Shown here: positions 14,151 to 28,833 of the stretch, in pieces
Layout of the letters: every line of letters begins with the position of its first letter
Position numbering within the stretch: position 1 is the stretch's first letter
Assembly: GCF_016919445.1 (NCBI RefSeq)
Contig: NZ_CP070356.1
Location: 1,495,501-1,559,500 of the forward strand
Origin: Pseudomonas sp. PDNC002
GTDB taxonomy: Bacteria > Pseudomonadota > Gammaproteobacteria > Pseudomonadales > Pseudomonadaceae
Length of the DNA stretch: 64,000 bases
Direction of reading: 5' to 3'
Position numbers and translations under genes: made by a program
The notes under the pieces: model-generated
Database searches by the model: none
Told to the model about the DNA's origin: nothing
Seen by the model: only the letters and a program-made list of their open reading frames with translations

Positions 14151-14210
14151 TTCTGCCAGGCGCTGATAGGCGGTAGACTGTCGCATCATCCTGCCGCCAT
14201 CGAGACCCTC

Positions 14211-15677
14211 ATGCAGTATCGCGACCTGCGCGAGTTCATCGCTGCCCTGGAGCAGCGTGGACAGCTCAAGCGCATCCAGGCGCCGGTATCCCCGGTGCTG
14301 GAAATGACCGAGGTGTGCGACCGCACCCTGCGCGCCAAGGGCCCGGCCCTGCTGTTCGAAAAGCCCACCGGCTTCGACATGCCTGTGCTCGGCAACCTGT
14401 TCGGCACGCCCGAGCGCGTGGCCCTGGGCATGGGCGCCGAGGATGTCTCCGAGCTGCGCGAGATCGGCAAGCTGCTGGCCTTCCTCAAGGAGCCGGAGCC
14501 ACCCAAGGGGCTGAAGGACGCCTGGTCCAAGCTGCCGATCTTCAAGAAGGTCATCAACATGGCGCCCAAGGTCCTGCGGGACGCGCCGTGCCAGGAAGTG
14601 ATCGAGGAGGGCGACGATGTCGACCTGTCGAGGCTGCCGGTGCAGACCTGCTGGCCCGGTGACGTCGCGCCGCTGATCACCTGGGGCCTGACCGTCACCC
14701 GTGGACCGAACAAGGAACGGCAGAACCTGGGCATCTACCGCCAGCAGGTGATCGGCCGCAACAAGGTCATCATGCGCTGGCTCAGCCACCGTGGCGGCGC
14801 GCTGGACTTCCGCGAGTGGTGCCAGAAGCATCCCGGCCAGCCCTATCCGGTGGCTGTGGCCCTCGGCGCGGACCCGGCGACCATCCTAGGCGCCGTGACC
14901 CCGGTGCCGGACAATCTCTCCGAGTATGCCTTTGCCGGCCTGCTGCGCGGCCACAAGACCGAGCTGGTCAAGTGCATCGGCAATGACCTGCAGGTACCGG
15001 CCAGCGCCGAAATCGTCCTCGAAGGGGTGATCCACCCCGGCGAGATGGCCGACGAAGGCCCGTATGGCGACCACACCGGCTACTACAACGAGGTGGACCG
15101 CTTCCCGGTGTTCACCGTCGAGCGCATCACCCGGCGGCAGAAACCGATCTACCACAGCACCTACACCGGCCGCCCGCCGGATGAGCCGGCTATCCTCGGC
15201 GTGGCGCTGAACGAAGTCTTCGTACCGATCCTGCAGAAGCAGTTCCCCGAGATCACCGACTTCTACCTGCCGCCCGAAGGCTGCTCCTACCGCATGGCGG
15301 TGGTGACCATGAAGAAGCAGTACCCCGGCCACGCCAAGCGCGTGATGCTCGGTGTCTGGTCGTTCCTGCGACAGTTCATGTACACCAAGTTCGTTATCGT
15401 CACCGACGACGACATCAACGCCCGCGACTGGAACGACGTGATCTGGGCCATTACCACGCGCATGGACCCCAAGCGCGACACGGTGATGATCGACAACACG
15501 CCGATCGACTACCTGGACTTTGCCTCGCCGATCTCCGGCCTGGGCTCGAAGATGGGCCTGGACGCCACCCACAAGTGGCCGGGCGAGACCAGCCGCGAGT
15601 GGGGCCGGGTGATCGAGAAGGACCCGGCGGTGACCCGTCGGGTCGATGAAATCTGGGCGAGCCTGGGCATCGATTGA
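14211..15677 (+). CDS. ubiD: 3-octaprenyl-4-hydroxybenzoate carboxy-lyase UbiD
   Basis: A 488-residue prenylated-FMN-dependent decarboxylase of ubiquinone biosynthesis; the usual UbiD length is about 490. It begins [22 protein letters not shown]. The conserved ExxR/E catalytic region ([24 protein letters not shown]), the Mn/prFMN-binding stretch [18 protein letters not shown] and the C-terminal [12 protein letters not shown] are all present. It needs the flavin prenyltransferase UbiX, which is not in the window. It follows rho, and an iron-sulfur flavoreductase gene lies downstream, as in many pseudomonads. Confidence 0.96.
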
Positions 15678-15693
15678 TGCCGGGCGCGGCCTT

Positions 15694-15715
15694 GCAGGAG
15701 CGTGCTTGCTCGCGA
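15694..15715. repeat. Single REP unit
   Basis: GCAGGAGCGTGCTTGCTCGCGA is one REP hairpin of the same family as 556-633, placed 17 bases after the ubiD stop. Confidence 0.7.
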
Positions 15716-15734
15716 ACAGGCGAGATCAAGAGCT

Positions 15735-15828
15735 CCTCACCCTGACCCTCTCCCGCAAGCGGGAGAGGGTCAGGGTGAGGGGGAAGTGCTGGCGCGGAGT
15801 GTCGAGAAGGAATCGGTTGCTCCGACGA
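15735..15828. repeat. Perfect 22-bp hairpin, reduced copy E of the CTCTCCC repeat
   Basis: Bases 15735-15756 and 15759-15780 are exact inverse complements separated by AA, giving a 22-bp perfect stem made of CCTCACCCTGACCCTCTCCC-type sequence. The following 48 bases (ending TGCTCCGACGA) resemble the tail of copy A at 4160-4210. It sits in the short gap between ubiD and the reductase gene and ends 24 bases before the TTG start there. Confidence 0.8.
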
Positions 15829-15851
15829 AATCAGAAGAACGAGAACATCGC

Positions 15852-16820
15852 TTGAAAGTGACCTTGCAACCCTCCGGCGCCCAGCTCGAGCTGACGCCTG
15901 GGGAACGTATCCTCGACGGTGCGCGGCGCCTGGGCTACGAGTGCCCGCAGAGCTGCCGCAACGGCAACTGCCACATCTGTGCGGCGCTGCTGGTGGAAGG
16001 CCGCGTGCGCCAGGATGGCGAGGTGCGTGACCATGGCGAACTCTTTACCTGCCTGGCCGAGCCGCTGGAAGACTGCGTGCTGCACTGGGACGGCGTGCTG
16101 GCCCCCGGCGAGTTGCCGGTGCGGGTGCTGTCCTGCCAACTGACCCTTTGCGAGCCCGTGGGCGGCGATGTCTGGCGCGTGCGCCTGCGCGCCCCGGCCG
16201 GCAAGCCGCCGCGCTACCACGCTGGGCAGTACCTGCTGATCGAGCGCGAGGACAGCGACCCGGCGGCCTTCTCCCTGGCTTCCGCGCCGCAGGAAGGGCG
16301 TGACCTGGAACTGCACATCCTGGCCCGCGAGAACAGCGCCATCGACCTGCTGGCGCAACTCCAGCGCGACCGTTTCGCCCGCGTGCAGATGCCTTTCGGC
16401 GACGCGCACCTCGCCGACCTGCCGGACGGCCCGCTGGTGCTGATCGCCGCCGGCACCGGCATGGCGCAGATGCACAGCCTGATCGAATTCTGCCGCGCCG
16501 CCGGCTTCGCCCACCCGGTCCACCTGTACTGGGGCGTGCGCCGCCCGGAAGACTTCTACGAGCTGCCGCACTGGGACCAGTGGGAAAGCGTGCCCAACCT
16601 GCACCTGCACAAGATCGTCAGCGACCTGTGTGGCTGGCAGGGGCGCTGCGGCCTACTGCATGAGGCGGTGTGCGAGGACTTCGCCGAGCTGTCCGGCCTG
16701 CGCGTATACGCCAGCGGCTCGCCAGCGATGGTCTATGGCACGCTGGATGCCCTGGTGGCGGCGGGCATGGACCCGCACCAGATGCGTGCCGACGTCTTCG
16801 CCTACGCCCCACGAGGCTGA
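15852..16820 (+). CDS. [2Fe-2S] ferredoxin-flavoreductase (CDP-6-deoxy-glucoseen reductase-like)
   Basis: A 322-residue protein with an N-terminal plant-type ferredoxin domain (cluster ligands in CPQSCRNGNCHIC, then a cysteine in LFTCLAEP), a FAD-binding domain (PPRYHAGQYLLIE) and an NAD(P)-binding domain (LVLIAAGTGMAQMHSL). The layout is that of CDP-6-deoxy-delta-3,4-glucoseen reductase and phenol hydroxylase reductases: NAD(P)H to FAD to [2Fe-2S] to a partner. In pseudomonads the ubiD-linked member is often annotated this way, but its partner is unknown. No ATG is available; TTG at 15852 begins the conserved sequence (start uncertain), because upstream bases belong to a repeat. Confidence 0.85.
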   Translation: MKVTLQPSGAQLELTPGERILDGARRLGYECPQSCRNGNCHICAALLVEGRVRQDGEVRDHGELFTCLAEPLEDCVLHWDGVLAPGELPVRVLSCQLTLCEPVGGDVWRVRLRAPAGKPPRYHAGQYLLIEREDSDPAAFSLASAPQEGRDLELHILARENSAIDLLAQLQRDRFARVQMPFGDAHLADLPDGPLVLIAAGTGMAQMHSLIEFCRAAGFAHPVHLYWGVRRPEDFYELPHWDQWESVPNLHLHKIVSDLCGWQGRCGLLHEAVCEDFAELSGLRVYASGSPAMVYGTLDALVAAGMDPHQMRADVFAYAPRG

Positions 16821-16887
16821 TTCAACTGCCTAGCGTCGTTGGAGCGCCTCGCCGTGCTAGTCGCACTGTCTTCGGCACTCCGCCTAG

Positions 16888-17808
16888 CTATTCAGTCGAC
16901 TCAGTCTCGTGGTTGGCATGTGGCGAGAATTCTTCCTGCAGCGCCGCACGAATCCAGTCCCCGAACCAGGCCACGTCGGCGCTCACCGCGCCGGTCGGTA
17001 GCAGCAGCTGATAGCTTTCCAGCGGCACTTCCTCGGGCAGCGGCCGCACCAGCGTGCCGGCGGCCAGCTGGTGCTTCACCAGCACCAGGTTGGCCAGGGC
17101 GATACCGTGGCCGGCCTCGGCCATGGACAGGGCGTGGTCGTTGCTGACGTAGAGCACGTCGGAGTTCACCCGCAGGTCGAGGCCGATGGTGGACAGCCAG
17201 AGGTTCCACCACTCGCCGTCGTCGACGTGGATCAGCTTGTGCCGGGCGAGATCGTGCACGCTGCTCAGCGGCCCGTTTTCCTTGAGGTAGGAGGGCGAGC
17301 ACACCGGGAACACCGCCGGCCGCACCAGGGTGCTGTGACACTGCGGATAGACGCCGGGAAGCCCGTAGACAATCCCCAGATCGGCGCTTTTACCGTCCAC
17401 TTCGGTGAAAGTCGGGTTGGGTTCCACCGCCACCTTCAGGCCGGGGCGCTGCTGGCGTAGGGTCTCCAGGCGCGGCATCAGCCAGCGCTTGGCGAAGGCC
17501 GGCACCACCATGATCTTCAGCCAGCGCGCGGTGCCGCCGGGGGCCAGTTCATGGCCGGCATCGGCGATCTGCTGCAGGGCTGTGGATATCTTCGCGTAGT
17601 AGCGTTGCCCGGCGGGCGTCAGGCTGACCCCGCGCGGGGTGCGCTCGAATAGCTGCACGCCCAGCCAATCTTCCAGCAGCTTCACGTGACGGCCGATGGC
17701 CGGCTGCGTCACATGCAGGTCTTTCGAGGCGGCGACGTAGCTGCCCAGGCGTGCGGCGGCCTCGAAGGCGCGGACGGCATTGAGCGGCGGAAGACGCTGG
17801 ATGGACAT
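16888..17808 (-). CDS. LysR-type regulator (GcvA-like), divergent from the ABC/amidase/mat operon
   Basis: A 306-residue LysR-type regulator. The N-terminal winged helix-turn-helix reads LPPLNAVRAFEAAARLGSYV, then DLHVTQPAIGRHVKLLEDWLG, the GcvA/AmpR subgroup pattern. Residues from about 90 form the effector-binding domain (IMVVPAFAKRWLMPRLETL). It is transcribed away from the transporter-amidase-matAB operon, the usual arrangement for a LysR protein controlling the adjacent operon. The 233-bp gap holds two perfect inverted repeats suited to LysR binding. The effector is unknown; a malonyl compound or malonate would fit the operon (inference). Confidence 0.88.
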   Translation of the reverse strand: MSIQRLPPLNAVRAFEAAARLGSYVAASKDLHVTQPAIGRHVKLLEDWLGVQLFERTPRGVSLTPAGQRYYAKISTALQQIADAGHELAPGGTARWLKIMVVPAFAKRWLMPRLETLRQQRPGLKVAVEPNPTFTEVDGKSADLGIVYGLPGVYPQCHSTLVRPAVFPVCSPSYLKENGPLSSVHDLARHKLIHVDDGEWWNLWLSTIGLDLRVNSDVLYVSNDHALSMAEAGHGIALANLVLVKHQLAAGTLVRPLPEEVPLESYQLLLPTGAVSADVAWFGDWIRAALQEEFSPHANHETESTE

Positions 17809-17871
17809 GGCATGGCCTCGGGGGTATCAGCTTTTTAGCTGTTAAATTATTTAATATCGAATGTAAGAAAA

Positions 17872-17888
17872 TTGAGCTTTTCGCTCAA
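17872..17888. promoter_or_regulatory. Candidate LysR operator, perfect 6-5-6 palindrome
   Basis: TTGAGC-TTTTC-GCTCAA is a perfect inverted repeat containing the T-N11-A core expected for LysR-type regulators. It lies in the AT-rich middle of the divergent intergenic region, 64 bases from the regulator start. Confidence 0.6.
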
Positions 17889-17926
17889 CCACCTTTCTTC
17901 GAATATCCGCCTCAACAACACCACAA

Positions 17927-17943
17927 CTTGGGTCTGACCCAAG
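17927..17943. promoter_or_regulatory. Second palindrome upstream of the ABC operon
   Basis: CTTGGGTC-T-GACCCAAG is a perfect 8-1-8 inverted repeat about 100 bases before the ATPase start. It could be an operator or a transcript hairpin in the leader; its unlike sequence suggests a different binder from the 17872 site. Confidence 0.45.
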
Positions 17944-18041
17944 GCCAGCGCTGCAATCCAGCGTCTCTAGTCCTGCCAGAACAAATACAAGATCCCCCGA
18001 CCGCCTTCTGGTGGCGGAAGGGAAGGTATGGAGGTTTCACC

Positions 18042-19160
18042 ATGAGTGCCCTGCACAGCCTGCAGACGGCGGCGGTTTCCATCCGCTCCGTGCGCAAGGT
18101 CTACGGCGACCCGGCCAGCGGCCCCGTCGCGCTGAAATGCGTCGACCTGGATATCCGCGACAACGAATTCTTCACCCTGCTCGGTCCCTCGGGCTGCGGC
18201 AAGACCACCTTGCTGCGGATGATCGCCGGCTTCGAGTTCCCCACCGCCGGGGAAATCCAGCTCTACGGCGAGAACATCGCCGACCGGCCGCCGTTCGAAC
18301 GCCCGGTCAACACGGTGTTCCAGCACTACGCGCTGTTCCCGCACATGACCATCGCCGAGAACCTCGCCTTCGGCCTGGAATCCCACCCGATGGGCCAGCG
18401 CATGAGCAAGGCGCAGGTCGCCGAGCGCGTCCGCGAGATGCTCGCCCTGGTGCAGATGGAACGCTTCGCCCAGCGCAAGCCGACCCAGCTCTCCGGCGGC
18501 CAGCAGCAGCGCGTCGCCCTGGCCCGTGCGCTGGCGCCGCATCCGAAAGTGCTGCTGCTCGACGAGCCGCTTTCCGCCCTCGATCTCAAGCTGCGCCAGG
18601 CCATGCGTGAAGAACTCAAGGCGATCCAGGCCAAGACCGGCATCACCTTCATCTTCGTCACCCACGACCAGGAAGAAGCCCTGACCATGTCCGACCGCAT
18701 CGCCGTGCTCTCCGAGGGCGAAGTGCAGCAGGTCGGCCGCCCGGATGACATCTACGAGCATCCGCGCAACCGCTTCGTCGCCGACTTCATCGGCGAGACC
18801 AACTTCCTGCCGGCCCGCGTCGAGAACTTCGACGGCGACCGCGCGTACTACCGCATCGGCGGTGAGCAGTTGATCGAGGCTGGCTCCCGCGAGGGCCTGA
18901 AGGTCGGTGCCGAGGTCACCCTGTCGATCCGCCCCGAGCGCCTGCAACTGGTAGCCGAGGACACGTCGTCCGCCGCGCCCTGCACCGTCGTCCAGCAGAT
19001 CTACCTGGGCACCGACCTGCAGTACCAGGTGGCGCTCGCCGACGGCAGCAAGCTGACCGTCCGTGCGCCCAACAGCGCCGGCCAGCGCGGCCGCCTGGTA
19101 GCCGGGCAACGCGCCGGGCTGCTGTTCGAAAAAGGCAGCGCCAGCGTCCTGGTGGACTGA
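18042..19160 (+). CDS. PotA-like ABC transporter ATP-binding protein
   Basis: A 372-residue ATPase. Walker A is GPSGCGKTT, the signature is LSGGQQQR, Walker B is LLLDEPLSALD, and the switch histidine is in FVTHDQEEALTM. A C-terminal TOBE domain (VTLSIRPERLQL) completes the polyamine/opine/iron-type ATPase layout. The ATG at 18042 begins the conserved protein and has GGAGG 10 bases upstream; the longer frame from 17928 covers the leader palindrome. It is the first gene of a seven-gene operon with two permeases, a binding protein, an amidase, matA and matB. Confidence 0.93.
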   Translation: MSALHSLQTAAVSIRSVRKVYGDPASGPVALKCVDLDIRDNEFFTLLGPSGCGKTTLLRMIAGFEFPTAGEIQLYGENIADRPPFERPVNTVFQHYALFPHMTIAENLAFGLESHPMGQRMSKAQVAERVREMLALVQMERFAQRKPTQLSGGQQQRVALARALAPHPKVLLLDEPLSALDLKLRQAMREELKAIQAKTGITFIFVTHDQEEALTMSDRIAVLSEGEVQQVGRPDDIYEHPRNRFVADFIGETNFLPARVENFDGDRAYYRIGGEQLIEAGSREGLKVGAEVTLSIRPERLQLVAEDTSSAAPCTVVQQIYLGTDLQYQVALADGSKLTVRAPNSAGQRGRLVAGQRAGLLFEKGSASVLVD

Positions 19161-19172
19161 GCGGAGGTGAGC

Positions 19173-20099
19173 ATGAACCGGTTATCCACAACCTCCGGCA
19201 ATGCGCTGGAGCGGCGCCAGGCGCTGCGCAGCTTCCTTGGCGTGTCGCCCGCGCTGGTTTCCATCGGCCTGTTCCTGATCGTGCCGATCTTCATCGTCGT
19301 CGGTTACTCGCTGATGCAGGCCAACCCCTATGGTGGCGTGAACCCGCACTTCAGCGTCGACGCCTACGTCTCGCTGCTGTTCGAGCGTCAGCTCGACGAC
19401 AGCCTGGCCTTCGCCGACTCCTACGTGATGATCGCGCTGCGTTCCATCGGCATCGCTGCGGCGACCACCGCGATCACCCTGCTGGTGGGCTTCCCGGTGG
19501 CGGTGTGGCTGGCCATGCAGCCGGCGCACCGTCGCGGCCTGCTGATCTTCCTGATCACCGTGCCGTTCTGGGCCAACCTGCTGATCCGCACCTACGCCTG
19601 GATCCTGCTGCTGCGCGGCACTGGCGTGGTCAACGGCACGCTGATGAGCTTAGGGCTAATCCACCAGCCGCTGAACCTGCTCTACACCGATGGCGCCGTG
19701 CTGCTGGGCCTGGTCTACACCTACGCGCCCTTCGTCGTACTGCCGATCTACGCGACCCTCGAGAAGATGGACATGCGCCTGCTCGAAGCGGCCCAGGACC
19801 TTTACGCCGGGCGTATCCGCACCCTGCGCAAGGTGGTCCTGCCGATCGCCCGGCCGGGGATTCTCGCCGGCGCCATCCTCACTTTCGTCCCCTGCCTGGG
19901 CGCGATGATCGCCCCCGAGCTGCTCGGCGGCGGCACCAAGATGATGCTCGGCAACCTGATCTTCCGGCAGTTCAGCGACTCGCGGAACTGGCCCTTCGGC
20001 GCGGCGCTGTCGCTGGTGCTGATGGGAGCCGTGATGCTGGTGCTGATGTTCTACGCGATGCGCGCCGAGCGCCTGCGCATCGCCCGGGGAGGTGAATGA
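19173..20099 (+). CDS. PotB-like ABC permease
   Basis: A 308-residue inner-membrane permease with six predicted helices and the EAA loop that docks the ATPase (EAAQDLYAGRIRTLRKVVLPIARPGILAG). It belongs to the PotB/spermidine-putrescine group. The ATG at 19173 is preferred over GTG 19167 because GGAGG at 19163-19167 would otherwise overlap the start codon. It is translationally coupled to the next permease, with a start/stop overlap of one to four bases. Confidence 0.92.
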   Translation: MNRLSTTSGNALERRQALRSFLGVSPALVSIGLFLIVPIFIVVGYSLMQANPYGGVNPHFSVDAYVSLLFERQLDDSLAFADSYVMIALRSIGIAAATTAITLLVGFPVAVWLAMQPAHRRGLLIFLITVPFWANLLIRTYAWILLLRGTGVVNGTLMSLGLIHQPLNLLYTDGAVLLGLVYTYAPFVVLPIYATLEKMDMRLLEAAQDLYAGRIRTLRKVVLPIARPGILAGAILTFVPCLGAMIAPELLGGGTKMMLGNLIFRQFSDSRNWPFGAALSLVLMGAVMLVLMFYAMRAERLRIARGGE

Positions 20100-20905
20100 T
20101 GCTCTCGCTGCTGAGCAAACGCCGTCTGGGCGTGCAGGATTTCCGTGGCTTCGGCGTCCTGAGCTTCCTGTTCTACCTGTACCTCTACGCGCCCATCGTG
20201 GTGCTGGTGGTGCTCTCGTTCAACGCCAACCAGTCCGCCACCGTGTGGACCGGCTTCAGCCTCGACTGGTACCGCAGCGCTTTCGCCAACCAGGCGCTGC
20301 GCCAGGCCGCCGGCAACAGCCTGCTGATTGCCGTGTGCGCCAGCGTGATCGCCACGGCGATCGCCACCCTGGCCGCGCTGGGCACCTCGCGCGGGGCCAA
20401 GTTCAAGGGCCTGCGCCTGTCCATGGGGGCGATCATGCTGCCGCTGGTGCTACCCGAGATCGTGGTCGGCGTCGCCACCCTGGCGCTGTTCTCCACCCTC
20501 GGCCTGTCGCTGGGCTACGGCAACCTGATCATCGCCCACACGGTGTTCTGCATCCCGTTCGCCTACCTGCCGATCCGTGCTCGCCTGAACGACATGGACC
20601 TGTCCCTGGAGCAGGCCGCCGCCGACCTCTACGCCGGGCCCTGGCGGACCTTCCGCAAGGTCACCCTGCCGCTGCTGATGCCGGGGATCTTCTCCGGGGT
20701 GATGCTCGCCTTCATCGTCTCGCTGGATAACTTCGTGATCTCGATGATGGTCTCCCAGGCCGGCACCACCACCTTGCCGATCTTCATCTTCGGCCTGCTG
20801 CGCATGGGCGTGACGCCCGATGTGAACGCGGTGTCGACCCTGATCCTCGGCGTTTCCGTGCTGTTCGTAACGTTGTCTTTTTTGCTCGGCAAGAAGAAGG
20901 CCTGA
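20099..20905 (+). CDS. PotC-like ABC permease
   Basis: A 268-residue membrane permease, partner of the PotB-like protein. The EAA loop is EQAAADLYAGPWRTFRKVTLPLLMPGIFSG. Two adjacent ATG codons (20096 and 20099) are possible; the second is placed six bases after GGAGG and is preferred. The final hydrophobic helix ends with LGKKKA. Together with the ATPase and binding protein it forms a complete PotABCD-type importer. Confidence 0.92.
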   Translation: MLSLLSKRRLGVQDFRGFGVLSFLFYLYLYAPIVVLVVLSFNANQSATVWTGFSLDWYRSAFANQALRQAAGNSLLIAVCASVIATAIATLAALGTSRGAKFKGLRLSMGAIMLPLVLPEIVVGVATLALFSTLGLSLGYGNLIIAHTVFCIPFAYLPIRARLNDMDLSLEQAAADLYAGPWRTFRKVTLPLLMPGIFSGVMLAFIVSLDNFVISMMVSQAGTTTLPIFIFGLLRMGVTPDVNAVSTLILGVSVLFVTLSFLLGKKKA

Positions 20906-20925
20906 GCCCACAACCGGAGTAGAAG

Positions 20926-21960
20926 ATGAGCAAACTGATCGCTGCTGTAGGGGCCTCGCTGACGCTGGCCATGGCTGTCCACGCGCAAGCCGCCGAGCAA
21001 CTCAACGTGGTGAGCTGGAGTGGCTATTTCACCCCGCAGATCCTGGAGAAGTTCGAGAAGGAAACCGGCATCAAGGTCACCGTGGATTCCTACGACTCCA
21101 ACGAGACCCTGCTGGCCAAGCTCAAGCAGGGCGGCACCGGTTACGACGTGGCGATTCCCTCGCACCAGTTCGTGCCGATCCTGATCCAGGAGAAGCTGCT
21201 GGAGCGCTTCGACCCGGCCGGCCAGCCGTACTACGCCAACGTCGAGGACAACCTGAAGAAGCCCGCCTGGGACCCGGAAGGCGCCTACGCCGTGCCCTTC
21301 ATCTGGGGCACCACCAGCGTGGTGCTGGACAGCGCGAAATACAGCGGCCCGGCCGACAGCTACTCGGTGCTGTTCACCCCGCCGAAGGAGCTGCAGGGCA
21401 AGATCAACATGTTCGACTCGGCCAGCGAAGTGATCGATACCGCCAGCCTCTACCTGGGCATCCCGCTGTGCAGCGAGGACCCCAAACAGATGCAACAGGT
21501 GCTGACCCTGCTGAAGACCCAGAAGCCCTTCGTGAAGACCTACAGCTCCAAGGCCGGCTCGATCCGCGAGAACCTGGCCTCGGGCGAGGTCGACATGTCG
21601 ATGTTCTGGGGTGGCTCGTCGATGCGTGCGCGTGAGATGAAATCCAGCCTGAAGTACCTCTACCCGAAAGAGGGCGTGATGGCCTGGGTGGACAACCTGG
21701 TGATCCCGGCCGGCGCCAAGCACCCGGAGAACGCGAAGAAGTTCATCGCCTTCCTCAGCCAGCCGGAAAACTCGGCGATGACCCAGAACTTCCTCAAGCA
21801 CCAGAGCCCGATCAAGGGCGTGGAACCCTTCCTCGATGCCAGCCTCAAGGATGCGCCGGAACTGCACATCCCCGAAGGCACCAAGGTGGTGTTCAGCAAG
21901 ACCTGCGGCGAAGGCGCGATCCGCCTGGCCGACCGCATCTGGACCAACCTGATGCGCTGA
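20926..21960 (+). CDS. PotD-like periplasmic substrate-binding protein
   Basis: A 344-residue protein with a signal peptide cleaved after about AQAAE. It aligns well with PotD: WSGYFTPQILEKFEKETGIK, YDSNETLLAKLK and IPFIWGTTSVV-like segments. From memory of the PotD ligand site, the equivalents of W34, W229, W255, D257 (AWVDNL) and E171 are kept, whereas D168 and Y85 appear changed. This suggests an amine-bearing ligand that is not ordinary spermidine (inference). It lies directly upstream of the amidase, after a 167-base gap holding a short TCCCG/CGGGA hairpin. Confidence 0.9.
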   Translation: MSKLIAAVGASLTLAMAVHAQAAEQLNVVSWSGYFTPQILEKFEKETGIKVTVDSYDSNETLLAKLKQGGTGYDVAIPSHQFVPILIQEKLLERFDPAGQPYYANVEDNLKKPAWDPEGAYAVPFIWGTTSVVLDSAKYSGPADSYSVLFTPPKELQGKINMFDSASEVIDTASLYLGIPLCSEDPKQMQQVLTLLKTQKPFVKTYSSKAGSIRENLASGEVDMSMFWGGSSMRAREMKSSLKYLYPKEGVMAWVDNLVIPAGAKHPENAKKFIAFLSQPENSAMTQNFLKHQSPIKGVEPFLDASLKDAPELHIPEGTKVVFSKTCGEGAIRLADRIWTNLMR

Positions 21961-22127
21961 TCCCGCCAGACGGGAATACGGCACGGCGATGCACGCGTGC
22001 GCCAGCTCGGCGCAGCGGCATCGCTCGGCCTGAAGAACGCAACAAGCCTCGCCTGCCAGCGGGGTTGCTGAACCCGACATAGGCTTCCCATCTGCCGGAA
22101 GCTCCCGATGAAAGAAGGCCGCGCTCC

Positions 22128-23588
22128 ATGAGCCAGTACAAGCACAACAACGAACTCGTCCAGCTCCAGGCCCATGAACTGGCCCAGCGCATCCGCCTGC
22201 GCCAGGTGTCCTGCCGCGAAGTCATGCAGTCGCACCTGGCGCAGATCGAACGCTACAACCCGGCGGTCAACGCCATCATCAGCCTGCAGCCCGAAGAGCA
22301 GCTGCTCGCCGAGGCCGACCAGCGCGACGCCGAGCTGGCGCGCGGCGAATACCGTGGCTGGATGCATGGCCTGCCGCACGCGGTGAAGGACCTGTCGCTG
22401 ACCCAGGGCATCCGTACCACCCTCGGCTCGCCGCTGTTCCGCGATTACGTGCCCGAGCGCGACGGCATCATGGTCGAGCGCATCCGCGCGGCCGGCGCCG
22501 TGCTGATCGGCAAGACCAACACCCCGGAATTCGGCCTCGGCTCGCACAGCTATAACCCGATCTTCGGCGCTACCGGCTGCGCCTACGCCCCCGAACGCAC
22601 TGCCGGTGGCAGCAGCGGTGGCGCGGCGGCCGCGCTGGCGCTGCAGATGGTCCCGGTGGCCGACGGCAGCGACATGATGGGTTCGCTGCGCAACCCGGCG
22701 GCGTTCAACAACATCGTCGGCTTCCGTCCGTCCCAGGGCCGCGTGCCATTCGACGACAGCGCCGACCTGTTCATCGACCAGCTCGGCTACGAAGGCCCGA
22801 TGGGCCGCAGCGTGCGCGACGTGGCGTTGCTGCTGTCGGTGCAGGCTGGCGGCGATGCTCGTGCGCCGCTGTCCATTGCCGAGAGTGGCGAGCAGTTCGC
22901 CGGCAGGCTGGAACGCGATTTCAAGGGCGCGCGCCTGGGCTGGCTGGGCGACCTGGGCGGCCACCTGCCGATGGAAAAGGGCGTGCTGGAGCTGTGCCGC
23001 AAATCCTTCGCCGACTTCGAAGCCATTGGCTGCCACATCGAAGACACCGCCATGGGCTTCTCGGCCGAGCGTCTCTGGGACACCTGGCGCACCCTGCGGC
23101 ACTGGATGGTCGCCGGCTCTCTCGGCGCGGCCTACACCGACCCGGTCAAGCGCGAACTGCTCAAGCCCGAGGCGATCTGGGAAGTGGAGAACGGCCTGAA
23201 GCTCTCGGCCATGGACGTGTTCCGCGCCTCCGCCGCGCGCAGCGACTGGTACCGCGCCATCAGCCAGCTGTTCGAGCGCTACGACTACCTGCTGCTGCCC
23301 AGCGCGCAGGTGTTCCCGTTCGACAAGACCTGGGACTGGCCGAAGGAAATCGCTGGCACGGCCATGGACACCTACCACCGCTGGATGGAAGTGGTGATTC
23401 CGGCCACCCTGTCCGGTTGCCCGGCAGCCAACGTGCCGGTGGGCTTCAATGAGCAGGGCTTGCCCATGGGCCTGCAGATCATCGGCAAGCACCAGGCCGA
23501 CATGGCCGTGCTGCAACTGGCCCACGCCTACGAGCAGGCTTCGCGCTGGTACCAGCGCTGCCCGCCGCCGATGCTGAAGGGCGACTGA
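22128..23588 (+). CDS. Amidase-signature family hydrolase (possible malonamidase or ureidomalonase)
   Basis: A 486-residue amidase-signature enzyme. The catalytic triad is intact: K87 in HAVKDLSLTQG, cis-serine S162 in GGSSGG, and nucleophile S186 in DMMGSLRNPAAF, with the same spacing as in FAAH (75 and 24 residues). No signal peptide, so it acts in the cytoplasm on an imported amide. Being between a solute importer and matA-matB, it probably releases malonate from an amide such as malonamate, ureidomalonate or a malonyl-amine (inference); amidase-signature enzymes linked to malonate are known (malonamidase E2 of rhizobia). It is not a GatA subunit: no gatB or gatC is nearby. Confidence 0.88.
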   Translation: MSQYKHNNELVQLQAHELAQRIRLRQVSCREVMQSHLAQIERYNPAVNAIISLQPEEQLLAEADQRDAELARGEYRGWMHGLPHAVKDLSLTQGIRTTLGSPLFRDYVPERDGIMVERIRAAGAVLIGKTNTPEFGLGSHSYNPIFGATGCAYAPERTAGGSSGGAAAALALQMVPVADGSDMMGSLRNPAAFNNIVGFRPSQGRVPFDDSADLFIDQLGYEGPMGRSVRDVALLLSVQAGGDARAPLSIAESGEQFAGRLERDFKGARLGWLGDLGGHLPMEKGVLELCRKSFADFEAIGCHIEDTAMGFSAERLWDTWRTLRHWMVAGSLGAAYTDPVKRELLKPEAIWEVENGLKLSAMDVFRASAARSDWYRAISQLFERYDYLLLPSAQVFPFDKTWDWPKEIAGTAMDTYHRWMEVVIPATLSGCPAANVPVGFNEQGLPMGLQIIGKHQADMAVLQLAHAYEQASRWYQRCPPPMLKGD

Positions 23589-23616
23589 TTCACTTATCCA
23601 CAAGCGAGGGGGATGC

Positions 23617-24936
23617 ATGAACATCAGCTTCTTCCAGGAACTGCTGCAGAGCATCAGCGAGCGCGGCCGGCAATTGCTGGAGTCGCGCGAGCCGGCGCCG
23701 GGCAATGCCCAGGCGCTGGCGCAGGCCTGCCGCAAACTGATCTCCGGCCATGGCGAGGCTTCCGGCGTGGCGCTGGCGCGGCAGGTGCTGTGCGCCTACC
23801 GCGACTGTCCGGAGGAGCAGCAGAAGGCTTTCTTCGACACGCTGCTCATGGACTTCGCGCCGCCTCATGACGCGCTGGCCGAAGCCTGCCAGCGCTATCT
23901 CGACGATCCTTCGTCGGCCAACACCACCCAGCTGTTCGAGGCCAGCGAACCACCGCGCCAGGAACTGTTCCGCCGCCTCAACCAGGCGCCGGGCGGCACC
24001 GCCGAGCTGATCGCCATGCGCCGCCGGTTGCTGGGGGAACTCAAGGGTAAACCCGAGTTGGCGGCCGTGGACCACGACCTGCAACACCTGCTGGCGTCCT
24101 GGTTCAACCGCGGCTTCCTGGTGCTGCGGCGCATCGACTGGTCGACCCCGGCGTCGATCCTGGAAAAGATCATCAAGTACGAGGCCGTCCACGCCATCAA
24201 GGACTGGGACGACCTGCGCAGCCGCCTGCAGCCGGCCGACCGCCGCTGCTTCGCCTTCTTCCACCCGGCGCTGGCGGAAGAACCGCTGATCTTCGTCGAG
24301 GTGGCGCTGACCCGTGCGATGCCCGGTGCGATCGCTGACATTCTGGAGCCTGGTTCGCCCGCGCAGCCGCTGGAAGAGCCCGACACCGCCGTCTTCTACT
24401 CCATCAGCAACTGCCAGGACGGCCTGCGCGGCATTTCCTTCGGCAACTTCCTGATCAAGCAGGTGGTAGAAGAGCTGGCGCGGGAGATTCCCGGCCTGCG
24501 CCAGTACGTCACCCTGTCGCCGGTGCCCGGCTTCCGTCGCTGGCTCGATGGGCTGGGCGACGTCCCGCAACTGGGCGCGGCCGCCGCCGAGCTGCTCAAG
24601 GCGCTCAAGCCCGACGCGCCGCCACCGCCGCGCACCGAGCAGCCACTGCTGGCGCTGGCCGCCGAATATTTCCTGCACGCCAAGAATGGCGCCGGCCTGC
24701 CGCTCGACCCGGTGGCGCGCTTCCACCTCGGCAACGGTGCCCGCCTGGAACGCCTGAACTGGCGTGGCGACCTTTCCGCCAGCGGTCTGCGCCAGGCCGC
24801 GGGACTGATGGTCAATTACCGCTACGAACTGCGCCAGATCGAAAAGAACCACGAAGCCTACGCCAACCAGGGCGCGGTCGCGGCCTCACCCGAGGTGCGC
24901 AAGCTCGCGACGCTGTCGGCGAAAACAAAACGCTAG
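23617..24936 (+). CDS. matA: Malonyl-CoA decarboxylase
   Basis: A 439-residue enzyme converting malonyl-CoA to acetyl-CoA and CO2. An N-terminal helical domain (about residues 1-135) precedes the GNAT-fold catalytic domain. Conserved catalytic motifs are LSPVPGFRRWL with S301 and DPVARFHLGNGARLERLNW with H370. The ribosome-binding site is GAGGGGG, eight bases before the ATG. It is placed between the amidase and the malonyl-CoA synthetase; the pair forms the MatAB route first described in rhizobia. This is unrelated to the biotin-independent Mdc malonate decarboxylase common in Pseudomonas. Confidence 0.93.
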   Translation: MNISFFQELLQSISERGRQLLESREPAPGNAQALAQACRKLISGHGEASGVALARQVLCAYRDCPEEQQKAFFDTLLMDFAPPHDALAEACQRYLDDPSSANTTQLFEASEPPRQELFRRLNQAPGGTAELIAMRRRLLGELKGKPELAAVDHDLQHLLASWFNRGFLVLRRIDWSTPASILEKIIKYEAVHAIKDWDDLRSRLQPADRRCFAFFHPALAEEPLIFVEVALTRAMPGAIADILEPGSPAQPLEEPDTAVFYSISNCQDGLRGISFGNFLIKQVVEELAREIPGLRQYVTLSPVPGFRRWLDGLGDVPQLGAAAAELLKALKPDAPPPPRTEQPLLALAAEYFLHAKNGAGLPLDPVARFHLGNGARLERLNWRGDLSASGLRQAAGLMVNYRYELRQIEKNHEAYANQGAVAASPEVRKLATLSAKTKR

Positions 24937-24945
24937 GACCTCACC

Positions 24946-26469
24946 ATGAACCAGAGTCTTTTCGCCGAAGTCGGCAAACACCTGCCCAGCGACCTGTCCA
25001 AGCCCTTCATCCGCACGCCATTGGGTGGCGGCTACAGCTATGCCGACATGCTGCGCAGCACTTCGCAGTTCGCCCATGCGCTGGTGGAACTCGGCGTGCA
25101 GCCGGGCGACCGCGTTGCCGTGCAGGTCGACAAGAGCCCCGAGACGGTGATGCTCTACCTCGCCGTGCTGCGCGTTGGCGCGGTCTACCTGCCGCTCAAC
25201 AGCGGCTACACCGGCGACGAACTGCGCTACTTCCTCGACGACGCCGAGCCTTCGCTGTTCGTCTGCGCGCCGGCCTTCGAGGCCCAGGCCCGCGAGCTGG
25301 CTGAAGCCAGTGGCGTGGCCCGTGTGGCGACCCTGGGCGACCAGGTCGACGGCTCGCTGATGGACGCCGTGCATGGCAAGCCGGGGCGCTTCGTCGACGT
25401 GCCACGCGCCTCCGGCGACCTCGCCGCGATCCTCTATACCTCCGGCACCACCGGGCGCTCCAAGGGAGCGATGATCAGCCACGGCAACCTCGTCTCCAAC
25501 GCCCGCGCACTGGTGGATGCCTGGCAGATCACCCCCTCCGACTGGCTGCTCCATGCGCTGCCGATCTTCCATATCCACGGCCTGTTCGTGGCCTGCAACA
25601 GCCTGCTGATGGCAGGCGGCTCGATGCTCTTCCTCAGCAAGTTCGACGCCGCGCAGATGCTCCGCCTGCTGCCCCAGGTGAACCTGCTGATGGGCGTGCC
25701 GACCTTCTACACCCGCCTGCTCGACCAACCCGGCCTGACCCGCGAGGCGGTGGCGCACATGCGCCTGTTCATCTCCGGCTCCGCGCCGCTCACCGCGGAG
25801 ACCCACAAGGCGTTTTCCGAGCGCACCGGCATGGCGATCCTCGAACGCTACGGCATGACCGAGACCGGCATGAACACCTCCAACCCGCTGGATGGCGAGC
25901 GCATCGCCGGCACCGTCGGCTTCCCGCTGCCGGGCGTCGAGCTGCGCATCACCGATCCTTCGCAGTCCGAGCCGACCCCGCTGCCCCAGGGCGAGCCGGG
26001 GATGATCGAGGTGCGTGGGCCGAATGTGTTCCAGGGCTACTGGCGCATGCCGGAGAAGACCGCCGAGGAGCTGCGCGCGGACGGCTACTTCATGACCGGC
26101 GATATCGGCTTCATCGACGACAAGGGCTACGTGCAGATCGTCGGCCGTAACAAGGACATGATCATCAGCGGCGGCTTCAACGTGTACCCCAAGGAGCTGG
26201 AGGAAATCCTCGACACCCTGCCGGGCGTGGTCGAGTCGGCGGTGATCGGCGTGCCGCACCCGGACTTCGGCGAGGGCGTTACCGCCGTACTGGTGGCCAC
26301 TCAGGGCCAGGCGCCGAGCGAGGCCCAGGTGCTCGCCGCGCTGGATGGCAAGCTGGCGCGCTTCAAGCAGCCCAAGCGGGTGATGGTGGTCGATGCGCTG
26401 CCGCGCAACGTGATGGGCAAGGTGCAGAAGAATGTGCTGCGCGAGCAGTTCAAGGCGCTGTATTCCTGA
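24946..26469 (+). CDS. matB: Malonyl-CoA synthetase
   Basis: A 507-residue ANL-superfamily ligase that activates malonate with ATP and CoA. The AMP-binding P-loop is YTSGTTGRSKGAM; the A5 motif is ERYGMTETGM; the hinge and C-domain show GRNKDMIISGGFNVYPKELE, and the catalytic lysine is in VMGKVQKN. The stretches LMGVPTFYTRLLDQ and FISGSAPLTAETH are characteristic of MatB rather than general acyl-CoA synthetases. It starts nine bases after matA and ends at a clear terminator, making it the last gene of the operon. Confidence 0.92.
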   Translation: MNQSLFAEVGKHLPSDLSKPFIRTPLGGGYSYADMLRSTSQFAHALVELGVQPGDRVAVQVDKSPETVMLYLAVLRVGAVYLPLNSGYTGDELRYFLDDAEPSLFVCAPAFEAQARELAEASGVARVATLGDQVDGSLMDAVHGKPGRFVDVPRASGDLAAILYTSGTTGRSKGAMISHGNLVSNARALVDAWQITPSDWLLHALPIFHIHGLFVACNSLLMAGGSMLFLSKFDAAQMLRLLPQVNLLMGVPTFYTRLLDQPGLTREAVAHMRLFISGSAPLTAETHKAFSERTGMAILERYGMTETGMNTSNPLDGERIAGTVGFPLPGVELRITDPSQSEPTPLPQGEPGMIEVRGPNVFQGYWRMPEKTAEELRADGYFMTGDIGFIDDKGYVQIVGRNKDMIISGGFNVYPKELEEILDTLPGVVESAVIGVPHPDFGEGVTAVLVATQGQAPSEAQVLAALDGKLARFKQPKRVMVVDALPRNVMGKVQKNVLREQFKALYS

Positions 26470-26485
26470 ACCTTGCGTACCTGAA

Positions 26486-26510
26486 AGAGCCCCGTTCGCG
26501 GGGCTTTTTG
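26486..26510 (+). terminator. Rho-independent terminator after matB
   Basis: AGCCCCG / CGGGGCT stem with a TTCG-type loop and a T5 run, 17 bases after the matB stop; it closes the operon. Confidence 0.88.
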
Positions 26511-26515
26511 CTTTC

Positions 26516-26674
26516 GTAGGAGCAACCGTCTTTCTCGGGAAGCCCGTGCCGACGCTTTCCCCTCACCCCAGCCCTCTCCCGGTGGGAGAGGGAGCTGTCC
26601 GTGCCGGCTGACGCTGAAGTTTCATCCTGCACCGAGCGATCCCCTCTCCCCCTGGGAGAGGGTTAGGCTGAGGG
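26516..26674. repeat. Composite dispersed repeat, copy B (inverse of copy A)
   Basis: It starts GTAGGAGC and runs through TCTTTCTCGGGAAGCCCGTG and the CCCTCTCCC/GGGAGAGGG hairpins, ending GGTTAGGCTGAGGG. Read in reverse complement it matches copy A at 4037-4208 almost base for base at the outer end. It sits five bases after the matB terminator. Confidence 0.82.
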
Positions 26675-26965
26675 CCGACCCAGGCGCAGAGGCATCTCGT
26701 AGCAACGGACTGTGTCCGCGATGTGCCTGCTTCGCGCTGGGCTTTCCCGCGTCGCTTCTGCGCGCACTGCAAGCTCTTGTTTCGCTCCCTCGGGCGACCT
26801 CCTTTGGAAAGACCCAAAGGAGGCAAAGGTCTTGCCCCAATCATCCGGTTTTTCGCCTAGGCGAAAAATGCCCTCGTCGAACCGAGTTTCAACAAGGCCT
26901 CCTGAACGGGGCGGCCCGGAGCGTGCGGATGTTGCGCTGGAACCTGCAAGGCGTCATCGGATACG
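26675..26965. repeat. Intergenic repeat island with two strong palindromes
   Basis: No gene is supported here. It holds CCTCCTTTGG-AAAGAC-CCAAAGGAGG (26798-26823, perfect 10-bp stem) and TTTTTCGCCTAGGCGAAAAA (26849-26868, perfect 20-bp palindrome). All six frames give only low-complexity or broken peptides, and the sequence looks like dispersed non-coding repeat material. Confidence 0.6.
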
Positions 26966-26994
26966 AAAAAGCCCCGCTGATACGGGGCTCTTTG
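26966..26994 (-). terminator. Terminator for the quinone oxidoreductase gene
   Basis: AGCCCCG / CGGGGCT stem with a T5 run on the minus strand, 60 bases past the oxidoreductase stop. Confidence 0.8.
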
Positions 26995-26998
26995 CTTT

Positions 26999-27050
26999 CG
27001 TAGGAGCGGAGCTTCTCCGCGAAACGCGGATGAAATCCGCGCCTCTACGA
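26999..27050. repeat. REP-like hairpin pair
   Basis: TCGTAGGAGC at the left and GCCTCTACGA at the right are imperfect inverse copies. Inside are GCGGAGCTTCTCCGC and CGCGGAT-GAA-ATCCGCG hairpins. It lies just beyond the stop of the minus-strand oxidoreductase. Confidence 0.7.
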
Positions 27051-27053
27051 TCC

Positions 27054-28031
27054 TCAGCGAACCGTCACCACCACCTTGCCCACCGCCTTGCGCTGGCCCA
27101 GGTGATTGATCGCGTCGGCGGCTTTCTCCAGCGGGAAAGTCTGCGACACCAGCGGCTTGATCTTGCCCTCGGCGAACCACTTGAACAGCTGCTGGAAGTT
27201 CGCCGCGTTGTCCTGCGGCTGGCGCTGGGCGAAGGAGCCCCAGAACACGCCGACCAGGGACGCGCCCTTGAGCAGGGTGAGGTTGGCCGGCAGCGACGGG
27301 ATGGTGCCGCTGGCGAAGCCGACCACCAGCATGCGGCCGTTCCAGGCGATGGAGCGGAAGGCTTCTTCGAACAGGTCGCCGCCGACCGGATCGTAGATCA
27401 CGTCCACGCCCTGGCCGCCGGTGATTTCCTTGAGCTTGTCCTTCAGGCTGCCTTCGCTGTAGTTGATCAGCACGTCGGCGCCGGCGGCCTTGGCCACTTC
27501 CAGCTTGGCTTCGCTGCTGGCGGCGGCGATCACTTTGGCGCCCATGGCCTTGCCGATTTCCACCGCCGCCAGGCCCACGCCACCAGAGGCGCCGAGCACC
27601 AGCAGGGTTTCGCCCGGCTGCAGGTTGGCGCGCTGCTTGAGTGCGTGCATGGAAGTGCCGTAGGTCATGCCGAAGGCGGCGGCGCTGGCGAAGTCCATGC
27701 CGTCGGGGATCGGCATCACGCTGTAGCCGGGCACCGCCACTTCCTCGGCGAAGCTGCCCCAGCCGGTCAGCGCCATCACGCGGTCGCCGGGTTTCACGTG
27801 GGTGACTTTCTCACCGACCGCGCCGACCACACCAGCGGCCTCTCCACCCGGGGAGAACGGGAAGGGCGGCTTGAACTGGTATTTGCCCTCGATGATCAGC
27901 GTGTCGGGGAAGTTGACCCCGGCGGCGTGAACCTGCAGCAGGACTTCGTTCTTCTTCGGCTCGGGGCTGGCGATGTCTTCCAGCACCAGGGTTTCGGCGG
28001 GGCCGAAGGCTTTGCACAGCACGGCTTTCAT
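27054..28031 (-). CDS. NADPH:quinone oxidoreductase family protein (MDR superfamily)
   Basis: A 325-residue zinc-independent medium-chain reductase. The GroES-like N-terminus (MKAVLCKAFGPAETLVLEDI) lacks the zinc ligands of alcohol dehydrogenases, and the Rossmann motif is LVLGASGGVGLAAVEIGKAMG. The family reduces quinones or alpha,beta-unsaturated carbonyls with NADPH. GGAAGG lies seven bases upstream of the ATG. It is transcribed towards the repeat island and away from the FliL-like gene. The exact substrate cannot be deduced. Confidence 0.88.
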   Translation of the reverse strand: MKAVLCKAFGPAETLVLEDIASPEPKKNEVLLQVHAAGVNFPDTLIIEGKYQFKPPFPFSPGGEAAGVVGAVGEKVTHVKPGDRVMALTGWGSFAEEVAVPGYSVMPIPDGMDFASAAAFGMTYGTSMHALKQRANLQPGETLLVLGASGGVGLAAVEIGKAMGAKVIAAASSEAKLEVAKAAGADVLINYSEGSLKDKLKEITGGQGVDVIYDPVGGDLFEEAFRSIAWNGRMLVVGFASGTIPSLPANLTLLKGASLVGVFWGSFAQRQPQDNAANFQQLFKWFAEGKIKPLVSQTFPLEKAADAINHLGQRKAVGKVVVTVR

Positions 28032-28190
28032 GGGGTCTTCCTTCCAAAGGAGGCGATCTGGGTGTCGGGCCAGTGTAGGAGCGCAGGCACAGGGGGCAAA
28101 TCACCATGGCCTCGGCTTATGCCCCGATATAGCTTGGGCGGCGGCGCGAGTGTGGCTATCCTTTGGCCCATCGAATCCGGAGACATCGCC

Positions 28191-28604
28191 TTGAGAGCAT
28201 TCCTCGCCCTGTTGCTGGTCCTTTCCTTCAGCCCCTTCGTCATGGCTTCCGAGTCCGAAGAGGCCAAGCCCGAAGATGCCAACAAACCGCTCTTCGTCGA
28301 CCTCACGCCCGCCCTCGTCGGCAACTACGGCAGCGGCCCGCGCTTGAAGTACTTCAAGGCCGACATCGCCCTCAAGGTTATCGGCAAGGAAGCGTCGGAG
28401 AAGGTCGAGCACCACGAGCCGCTGATCCGCAACCAATTGGTGATGCTGTTTGCCCAGCAAACGGATGAATCCCTCGGCAGCGTCGACGGCAAGGAAAAAC
28501 TGCGCCAGGAAGCGCTGAAGCAGGTACAGACCGTGTTGCAGCAGGAAGAAGGAAAACCCCTCGTCGACGACCTGCTGTTCAACAACCTGATCGTCCAGCC
28601 CTGA
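28191..28604 (+). CDS. Secreted FliL-like (flagellar basal-body-associated domain) protein
   Basis: A 137-residue protein with a hydrophobic signal sequence (RAFLALLLVLSFSPFVMAS) and a FliL-type domain. The segment RLKYFKADIALKVIGKEASEKVEHHEPLIRNQLVMLF (described by its ends only) has the FliL pattern, with repeats of charged residues leading to VQTVLQQEEGKPLVDDLLFNNLIVQ. No ATG is available; TTG at 28191 has GGAG eight bases upstream. No flagellar genes are nearby, so a role in motility is uncertain. Confidence 0.75.
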   Translation: MRAFLALLLVLSFSPFVMASESEEAKPEDANKPLFVDLTPALVGNYGSGPRLKYFKADIALKVIGKEASEKVEHHEPLIRNQLVMLFAQQTDESLGSVDGKEKLRQEALKQVQTVLQQEEGKPLVDDLLFNNLIVQP

Positions 28605-28742
28605 GCGCTTCCAGGGGCGTCTGCATGAGCGCAACTCATTTGCGCACCGCAGGCGCTTCCGTTTTCCGGCTGCGGCCACTCGCCGCAATGCCGGTCTGAA
28701 AGTCCCGCCTCGCAAGGTGCGCAGGAAATTTCCCATGCGCGC

Positions 28743-28756
28743 CTGACCTGAATCAA
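28743..28756 (+). promoter_or_regulatory. Candidate ANR/FNR box
   Basis: CTGAC-CTGA-ATCAA differs from the TTGAT-N4-ATCAA consensus at two positions of one half-site. It lies 78 bases upstream of the HlyD-family start. ANR activates genes under low oxygen in Pseudomonas. Confidence 0.45.
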
Positions 28757-28796
28757 ACCTCATTTGCCGCTGGTCGCCGAACATCCCCTCATGATT

Positions 28797-28812
28797 CGCT
28801 CGAATTCGAGCG
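28797..28812. promoter_or_regulatory. Perfect 16-bp palindrome before the HlyD operon
   Basis: CGCTCGAATTCGAGCG is fully self-complementary and lies 21 bases upstream of the start codon, where it could be a repressor operator near the transcription start. No regulator gene is adjacent. Confidence 0.4.
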
Positions 28813-28833
28813 TTTGAGCAAGGGGATACTCGG

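Follow-up and report, generated by a model that had tools for sequence, protein, structure and literature searches.

A probable operon for the uptake and breakdown of malonate half-amides in Pseudomonas

Eight genes of Pseudomonas sp. PDNC002 probably form, judging from their sequences and those of their relatives, a regulated unit for the uptake and catabolism of a malonate half-amide, HOOC-CH2-CO-NH-R. They lie in the window, the whole stretch of 64,000 nucleotides analysed (NZ_CP070356.1, positions 1,495,501 to 1,559,500). An earlier note had described there a LysR gene followed by PotABCD–amidase–matA–matB, and all eight genes are indeed present at the claimed places, 16888–26469, with their frames intact (table 1). 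Seven of them, PotA, B, C, D, amidase, MatA and MatB, are collinear, separated in that order by 12, −1, 20, 167, 28 and 9 bp. The eighth, a GcvA-like LysR regulator, is divergent.

How might such a unit work? The amide would be bound in the periplasm by the PotD-like protein and carried into the cell by PotABC. In the cytoplasm the amidase, whose Ser-cisSer-Lys catalytic residues are observed, would cleave the amide to malonate and ammonia or an amine. MatA and MatB, known to convert malonate to acetyl-CoA, are recognizable here as families, and by that chemistry MatB would turn the malonate into malonyl-CoA and MatA the malonyl-CoA into acetyl-CoA. The substrate may be malonamate or one of its N-substituted derivatives; since the operon contains no enzymes for a special amine, R would be H or the amine would be handled by general routes. 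The LysR protein presumably senses the amide or malonate via a conserved box. In relatives without MatAB the LysR–Pot–amidase module presumably passes malonate to the malonate decarboxylase Mdc.

Table 1. Features of the proposed malonate half-amide operon (window coordinates).
Feature	Coordinates	Strand	Evidence
LysR-type (GcvA-like) regulator, divergent	16888..17808	-	PF00126 + PF03466 over cut-off
AT-rich near-palindrome GTTAAATTATTTAAT, probable LysR box	17841..17855		conserved half-sites; inside inverted repeat I1 17835-17861
PotA-like ABC ATPase	18042..19160	+	ABC_tran, TOBE_2; TIGR01187 potA 366.9 bits, cut-off 355.6
PotB-like permease	19173..20099	+	BPD_transp_1; PotB model 218 bits, cut-off 348
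PotC-like permease	20099..20905	+	BPD_transp_1; PotC model 227 bits, cut-off 326
PotD-like periplasmic binding protein, altered pocket	20926..21960	+	PotD model 172 bits, cut-off 582
Amidase-signature hydrolase, PRK07486 subfamily; proposed malonate half-amide amidohydrolase	22128..23588	+	PF01425, NF005686
MatA, malonyl-CoA decarboxylase	23617..24936	+	PF05292 333.8 bits, PF17408 93.3 bits, both over cut-off
MatB, malonyl-CoA synthetase	24946..26469	+	NF005702 malonyl-CoA synthase 803.9 bits, cut-off 558
Probable intrinsic terminator of operon	26484..26509	+	inverted repeat I5: 11-bp stem, 4-nt loop, T tract

The rhizobial malonate pathway is encoded by matA-matB-matC. Like it, the window operon combines homologues of MatA and MatB and would lead from malonate to acetyl-CoA. 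Unlike it, the operon contains no MatC by the Pfam and NCBIfam profiles of its genes. In place of MatC stand a PotABCD-type importer and an amidase, and we therefore propose that the entry compound is an amide. The biotin-independent Mdc of Pseudomonas has the same end point, malonate to the acetyl level, but it is not homologous to MatAB, and the window's genome (G000) gave no match to mdcA (TIGR01110).

Could this gene order have arisen by chance? Across 25 genomes of the genus, PotC–PotD–amidase–MatA–MatB recurs in 20, G000 included (loci L082–L101). We conclude that the order is not a chance one, and the linkage put forward in the earlier note is borne out. The amidase itself is present in 21 of the 25, and in the 20 genomes that have MatA this gene always lies directly downstream of it. 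The twenty-first is P. aeruginosa PA7, which has no MatA and in which the module abuts the mdc malonate-decarboxylase operon, as it also does in G287. Four genomes carry mdcA; the four that lack the amidase have neither MatA nor mdcA. The full order UbiD–Fdx–LysR–PotABCD–amidase–MatA–MatB–QOR was read in L002–L005, L007, L124, L141 and L142.

Is the tie to MatAB as such, or to malonate? Among 348 genomes of the family, 48 carry an orthologue of the amidase. MatA or mdcA is found in 47 of these 48 and in 168 of the 300 without the orthologue (Fisher p 4e-10, in a co-occurrence test that ignores shared ancestry and has no control gene). Whereas mdcA occurs in just three of the 24 orthologue genomes with MatA, it occurs in 23 of the 24 without. 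Of the 26 MatA genes of the family, 24 adjoin the amidase. The earlier note had named as damaging to its proposal a finding that homologous operons usually lack matA and matB: half of the family loci (24/48) do lack MatA, but all save one of those 24 genomes carry Mdc. The tie is thus to malonate catabolism and not to MatAB as such. Two of these 23 genomes have the module next to mdc (L117, L119); in 20 the two are apart, mdcA being placed at a distance or on a different contig, and the placement in G228 was not listed. The separation in these 20 counts against the proposal, as does genome G049, which has PotABCD–amidase with other neighbours but lacks both MatA and mdcA. These counts come from ORF-blastp and tblastn placements, GC-based gene calling having missed or mis-stranded several genes, and the best four or three candidates per genome were scored in the family survey and in the phylum sample described below.

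At least three switches between presence and absence of MatAB fall on the tree of the amidase. In L140, from a genome with mdcA, UbiD–Fdx–LysR–PotABCD–amidase is followed after some 75 bp by QOR; this is the window locus minus MatAB only. This natural replacement of MatAB by Mdc, with the import-and-cleavage module left unchanged, resembles an experiment performed by evolution itself, and it makes the claim directly testable. Comparative genomics thus lends good support to the scheme of the earlier note, in which a malonyl amide would be imported and the malonate released from it fed to MatB and MatA.

PA0202–PA0207 of P. aeruginosa PAO1 are probably the exact orthologues of the window module, to judge from the PA7 locus, where L117 is their counterpart. 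The PA7 region differs from the window in having mdc and lacking MatA. In strain PAO1, mdc is PA0208–PA0214 (PMC6249292), and one table of genes with lowered expression groups the amidase PA0202 with the binding protein PA0203 and the permease PA0204 (PMC5605626). Among the matches listed, no open-licence text described this module; ‘malonate decarboxylase’ and ‘amidase’ occurred together only in PMC7555045, on a Liquorilactobacillus.

What kind of amidase is this? It scores 291.2 bits against Pfam Amidase (PF01425, cut-off 27) and 817.1 bits against PRK07486 (NF005686, curated cut-off 465), a subfamily that carries no name beyond ‘amidase’. The malonate-linked relatives L070, L077 and L052 score 794, 778 and 725 bits on the same NF005686 model. 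An AF2 model (pTM 0.89) has the AS fold, and the K87/S162/S186 triad, which the earlier note had called intact, is conserved without exception in an alignment of 22 sequences that includes the window's. Malonamidase E2 of Bradyrhizobium has the same amidase-signature fold and Ser-cisSer-Lys triad, and the expected reaction, malonamate to malonate, would be alike. The closer kinship to this enzyme that had been suggested is not supported. In phmmer searches it reaches 66–69 bits, against 203 for aryl acylamidase; it ranks far below both aryl acylamidase and GatA, close to the bottom of the 56 PDB sequence matches, and is 24% identical in structural alignment. The bit scores and this identity rule it out as close kin. 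Aryl acylamidase (PDB 4yj6/4yji) is itself just about 30% identical to the window amidase.

A second type of amidase, 61–65% identical, occurs in 41 genomes of the family, 39 of them with mdcA and the other two with MatA. The line between the types was drawn at 70% identity after the gap between 70 and 65% had been seen, and the context of the second type was read where loci were retrieved. A plasmid search (E ≤ 1e-60) returned 106 records, the best at 62.2% identity.

Do the Pot genes instead import malonate itself for MatAB, the amidase having a side job? MadM, of the MadLM malonate symporter, occurs in four of the 25 genus genomes, the four that also carry mdcA. All 17 genomes that have MatA without mdcA, G000 included, lack it; if malonate is taken up in these 17, some importer is needed. 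The pocket of the binding-protein family, with its invariant Arg and near-invariant His, also speaks for malonate as ligand. On the other hand, Pot–amidase is kept alongside mdc and MadLM in L117 and L119, and there would seem to be little need for another importer of malonate in these genomes. Malonate genes also accompany the amidase in loci that have MadLM or MatC for import: its neighbours are MadLM in L020, MadL–MadM–MatB in L052, MatAB–MadLM in L070 and MatC–MatAB in L077. We consider import of malonate itself unlikely.

Slightly less probable still is a putrescine- or spermidine-type importer that stands beside the amidase and MatAB by happenstance. The four-gene composition and the fold are those of the PotABCD and PotFGHI polyamine importers. 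However, only PotA passes its subfamily model, PotB, PotC and PotD falling far below the NCBIfam cut-offs, and the unit has malonate genes but no polyamine-catabolism gene. The polyamine-binding pocket of PotD contains four carboxylates, E36, D168, E171 and D257 (PMC11414716; for the roles of PotD and PotF pocket residues, PMC8666671 and PMC11414716). In the window protein these correspond to G33, S165, E168 and D256, so that two of the four carboxylates are gone; D39 and D247 of PotF are likewise replaced by Gly and Ser, and the Arg and His are present. On the sub-threshold scores and the altered pocket we reject a plain polyamine importer. A separate observation is that the retained acids 168 and 256 would suit a cationic group, which counts against the amide reading.

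Least probable, and without support, is that the substrate is ureidomalonate from barbiturate breakdown. Ureidomalonase does convert ureidomalonate to malonate and urea, as the amidase would have to, but the window operon contains no ring-opening enzyme. PF09663 (AtzD/TrzD, barbiturase) has no match in G000; as none of 14 control genomes gave a match either, barbiturase may nevertheless be present.

How far does the proposed breakdown of malonate half-amides extend beyond Pseudomonas? In L046 the amidase lies inside the mdc operon (mdcA–amidase–mdcC–D–E–G), in L060 it is beside MatAB, and in L125 MatAB is about 4 kb off. In a sample of 398 genomes of the phylum, 44 outside the genus contain the wider amidase family, one of them with MatA within 10 kb (G419); the next-nearest pair outside the genus is about 16 kb apart (G594). 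Of 36 non-Pseudomonas amidase loci, 29 show no malonate gene in the available flank and seven are malonate-linked, to be read against an assumed background of 1–2%, with L050 and L052 near-identical and some flanks short. Most M20–MFS–amidase–IclR loci are likewise free of malonate genes in the available flank. MatB-like genes below 38% and MatC-like genes below 35% identity close to an amidase were left uncounted (L019, L036, L041, L081, L131). Given these two counts, 1/44 and 29/36, the tie between amidase and malonate, strong within Pseudomonas, is sporadic outside it, and the sample excludes that every PRK07486-type amidase is MatAB-linked.

Inspection by eye gave Tat-type amidases in L020, L022, L024, L050, L051, L052, L053, L055, L056, L059, L065, L066, L073 and L075, and L077 was added from its N-terminus. 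Matches to the Tat pattern in upstream frames were taken as non-coding (L036, L064, L078, L098, L128–L131, L137, L138).

A broader reading, which we offer tentatively, is that PRK07486 amidases form, to a large extent at least, a widespread and as yet unnamed family of malonyl-amide hydrolases in the Pseudomonadota, and that many bacteria feed on N-malonylated compounds by means of dedicated importers. There would then be two logics, each ending in MatAB or Mdc: a cytoplasmic amidase with an amide importer, of Pot type as in the window, and an amidase exported by Tat, with MadLM or MatC importing the malonate (L020, L052, L077). Candidate foods would be malonamate or conjugates from plant or fungal amine detoxification; Fusarium, for one, forms N-(2-hydroxyphenyl)malonamic acid from maize benzoxazolinone. 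If the half-amide reading of the window operon is true, it would give a function to an amidase subfamily without one and to a transporter labelled ‘polyamine’, PA0202–PA0207 beside mdc in P. aeruginosa included. It would also draw attention to malonyl amides, a class of nutrient seldom considered in accounts of metabolism in soil and rhizosphere.

Some minor features of the window locus deserve mention. The ATG at 18042, preceded by GGAGG, looks to be the start of PotA, the listed TTG at 17928 seeming too early. MatA matched no NCBIfam model, and its gene is the sole match in the window's genome. The terminator is absent from the output of a simple terminator scan; an Rfam scan of 13500–30000 gave 0 matches and a sigma-70 scan of 17700–26600 gave 0 sites. 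The LysR protein scores 252 bits on the NCBIfam GcvA model, below the cut-off of 288. Its gene is divergent beside PotA in all orthologous loci read with upstream flank except L018, where it adjoins the amidase and PotABCD is missing, and L120, which has no LysR. The half-sites of its probable box, TTA and TAA, are identical in 20 of 20 aligned LysR–PotA intergenic regions, while the flanks diverge.

Does the window operon turn amides into malonate? On re-examination the earlier note's gene calls, catalytic triad and coordinates were all borne out in the window (G000:C1:1495501–1559500, part of a complete genome of 6.39 Mb). The flanks (see the table) enclose a divergently transcribed LysR gene followed by seven genes in one direction, PotA-PotB-PotC-PotD-amidase-MatA-MatB, spaced in order by 12, −1, 20, 167, 28 and 9 bp, the 167-bp gap parting the transporter genes from the enzyme genes. 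A probable terminator at 26484–26509 closes the run. A near-palindrome, GTTAAATTATTTAAT, at 17841–17855 keeps its half-sites TTA and TAA in 20 of 20 aligned LysR–PotA regions and may serve in regulation. The best explanation, and one that we consider likely, is that a malonate half-amide is imported and hydrolysed, feeding MatAB (or Mdc). Directly observed are the genes themselves, the intact catalytic residues, their conserved neighbourhood, and the co-occurrence with, and exchange between, MatAB and Mdc; the nature of the amide, its uptake and the regulation are inferred.

The earlier note had proposed conservation of the linkage as a check, and the linkage held. Among 25 genomes of the genus the amidase occurs in 21, the window genome included (match E ≤ 1e-150; best match at least 76% identical), and the MatA family PF05292 in 20, each time adjoining that amidase. 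The four genomes lacking the amidase (G027, G034, G038, G041) have neither the MatA nor the mdcA pathway. Both mdcA and MadM are confined to four genomes, G024, G025, G026 and G035, the first three of which carry MatA as well. At the locus of G035, P. aeruginosa PA7, the amidase-PotDCBA genes diverge from a LysR gene that is transcribed towards mdcA. In Pseudomonas sp. DTU12.3 the gene directly 3′ of the amidase (L008:10041–11351) encodes an S-type pyocin in which Pfam identifies a DNase domain.

For the family survey 348 genomes were each searched for the amidase (orthologues at ≥70% identity), MatA and mdcA, giving totals of 48, 26 and 193 genomes. MatA directly follows the amidase in 24 of 26 cases; the remaining two are in G230 and G294, genomes without an amidase orthologue. 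MatA or mdcA is present in 47 of 48 orthologue-bearing genomes vs 168 of 300 others (p 4e-10, phylogeny ignored), and outside the genus in 26 of 27 (p 1.6e-5, phylogeny ignored). The sole exception, the 2.6 Mb genome G049, keeps PotABCD-amidase without either gene; its neighbours there are another ABC set and what may be an amidohydrolase (L120:1778–13381).

Can MatAB be exchanged for Mdc? Orthologue-bearing genomes without MatA have mdcA in 23 of 24 cases, as against 3 of 24 with MatA. The LysR-PotABCD-amidase module adjoins mdc in two of these 23 (G035, G287); in 20 the two are apart or on different contigs, and in G228 mdcA was not placed. A tree of 41 amidases requires three changes of MatAB state, forced by well-supported branches, so the pair has been acquired or lost on at least three occasions; the MatA-less genomes involved have mdcA. 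One of the MatA-less loci, L140 (G095, mdcA present), lacks only MatAB of the window locus, a quinone oxidoreductase following the amidase by ~75 bp.

Flanking genes in the window, and loci beyond Pseudomonas where malonate genes adjoin the amidase
Feature	Position	Strand	Gene order or remark
UbiD-type decarboxylase gene	14211–15677		Flank on LysR side of operon
Ferredoxin-reductase-like gene	15702–16820		With UbiD-type gene, same flank
Quinone-oxidoreductase-like gene	27054–28031	−	Flank beyond operon end
L046, Herbaspirillum MAG	L046:6211–12157		mdcA-amidase-mdcC-mdcD-mdcE-mdcG; amidase between mdcA and mdcC
L052			amidase-MadL-MadM-MatB; MadL, MadM by Pfam
L050			Near-copy of L052, ended by contig edge
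L020, Collimonas			amidase-MadL-MadM; by similarity to L052/L077 genes
L070, Halomonas			MatA-MatB-MadL-MadM-amidase; by similarity
L060			MatA-MatB-amidase; by similarity
L077, Microvirga			MatC-MatA-MatB-amidase; MatC by Pfam

How far does the association extend? From a one-genome-per-species collection we took the best 80 of at least 583 candidates encoding a relative; among these 80, malonate genes adjoin the amidase in 7 of the 36 non-Pseudomonas loci, and the other 29 show no malonate gene in the flank examined. The malonate-linked amidases spread over several separate branches of a 73-row tree. A phylum sample of 398 genomes has the amidase family in 48, as judged from the three best candidates in each genome, and MatA in 84. 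Because only G419 outside the genus pairs the two within 10 kb (L125, an additional locus, amidase ~4 kb ahead of MatA-MatB), the wider family, at 47–60% identity, may include other activities. A distant Pot-type importer (PotA 55%, PotD 35%) with a 53% identical amidase occurs in another family of the phylum (L139:3648–9025); that genome, G638, has MatA on a different contig.

In L020, L050, L052 and L077, where a malonate importer gene adjoins the amidase, the enzyme has an N-terminal twin-arginine motif and hydrophobic stretch, as do several amidases without malonate neighbours. The L070 amidase has MadLM alongside and no twin-arginine signal; among Pot-linked amidases the one match to the pattern, at L098, lies in an upstream reading frame taken as non-coding. 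Two strategies would be consistent with this: the amide is cut outside the cell and the malonate taken up, or the intact amide is taken up and cut inside.

A paralogous amidase, 61–65% identical to that of the window, is found in M20 hydrolase-MFS symporter-amidase-IclR loci. An amidase in this identity range occurs in 41 of the 348 family genomes, 39 with mdcA and the other two, G104 and G150, with MatA. In G024 and G026 the cluster lies against the mdc operon, divergent from mdcA (L118:11484–16465, L123:10569–15576), and its symporter best matches metabolite/proton and tricarballylate symporter models, under cut-off (TIGR00883 382/443, TcuC 349/445 bits). Perhaps it is a second malonyl-amide pathway; the argument is limited, since most other such loci, common in Pseudomonas, show no malonate gene, mdc included, within the flanking DNA examined.

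Which amide would be imported? We found no description of the operon, or of this amidase–malonate link, in the open-licence literature searched. The amidase PA0202 and ABC parts PA0203 and PA0204 stand together in a table of down-expressed P. aeruginosa genes (PMC5605626), mdc is PA0208–PA0214 (PMC6249292), and the main text of an mdc expression study leaves PA0202 and PA0203 unnamed (PMC6506614). One natural N-aryl malonamic acid, N-(2-hydroxyphenyl)malonamic acid, is formed by Fusarium from benzoxazolinone (PMC4726666); that operon-bearing bacteria use such acids is speculation. Our guess slightly favours an N-substituted malonamic acid over malonamate; ureidomalonate, also raised by the earlier note, is unlikely.

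At 26560–26674, 3′ of the operon, lies a 33-nt imperfect inverted repeat of the type CCCTCACCCC...GGGAGAGGG, which we take to be akin to a dispersed REP-like element. From its listed start, the ferredoxin-reductase-like ORF runs through an apparently similar repeat (15702–15860, translation HPDPLPQAGEGQGEGE), and its real start probably lies further downstream.
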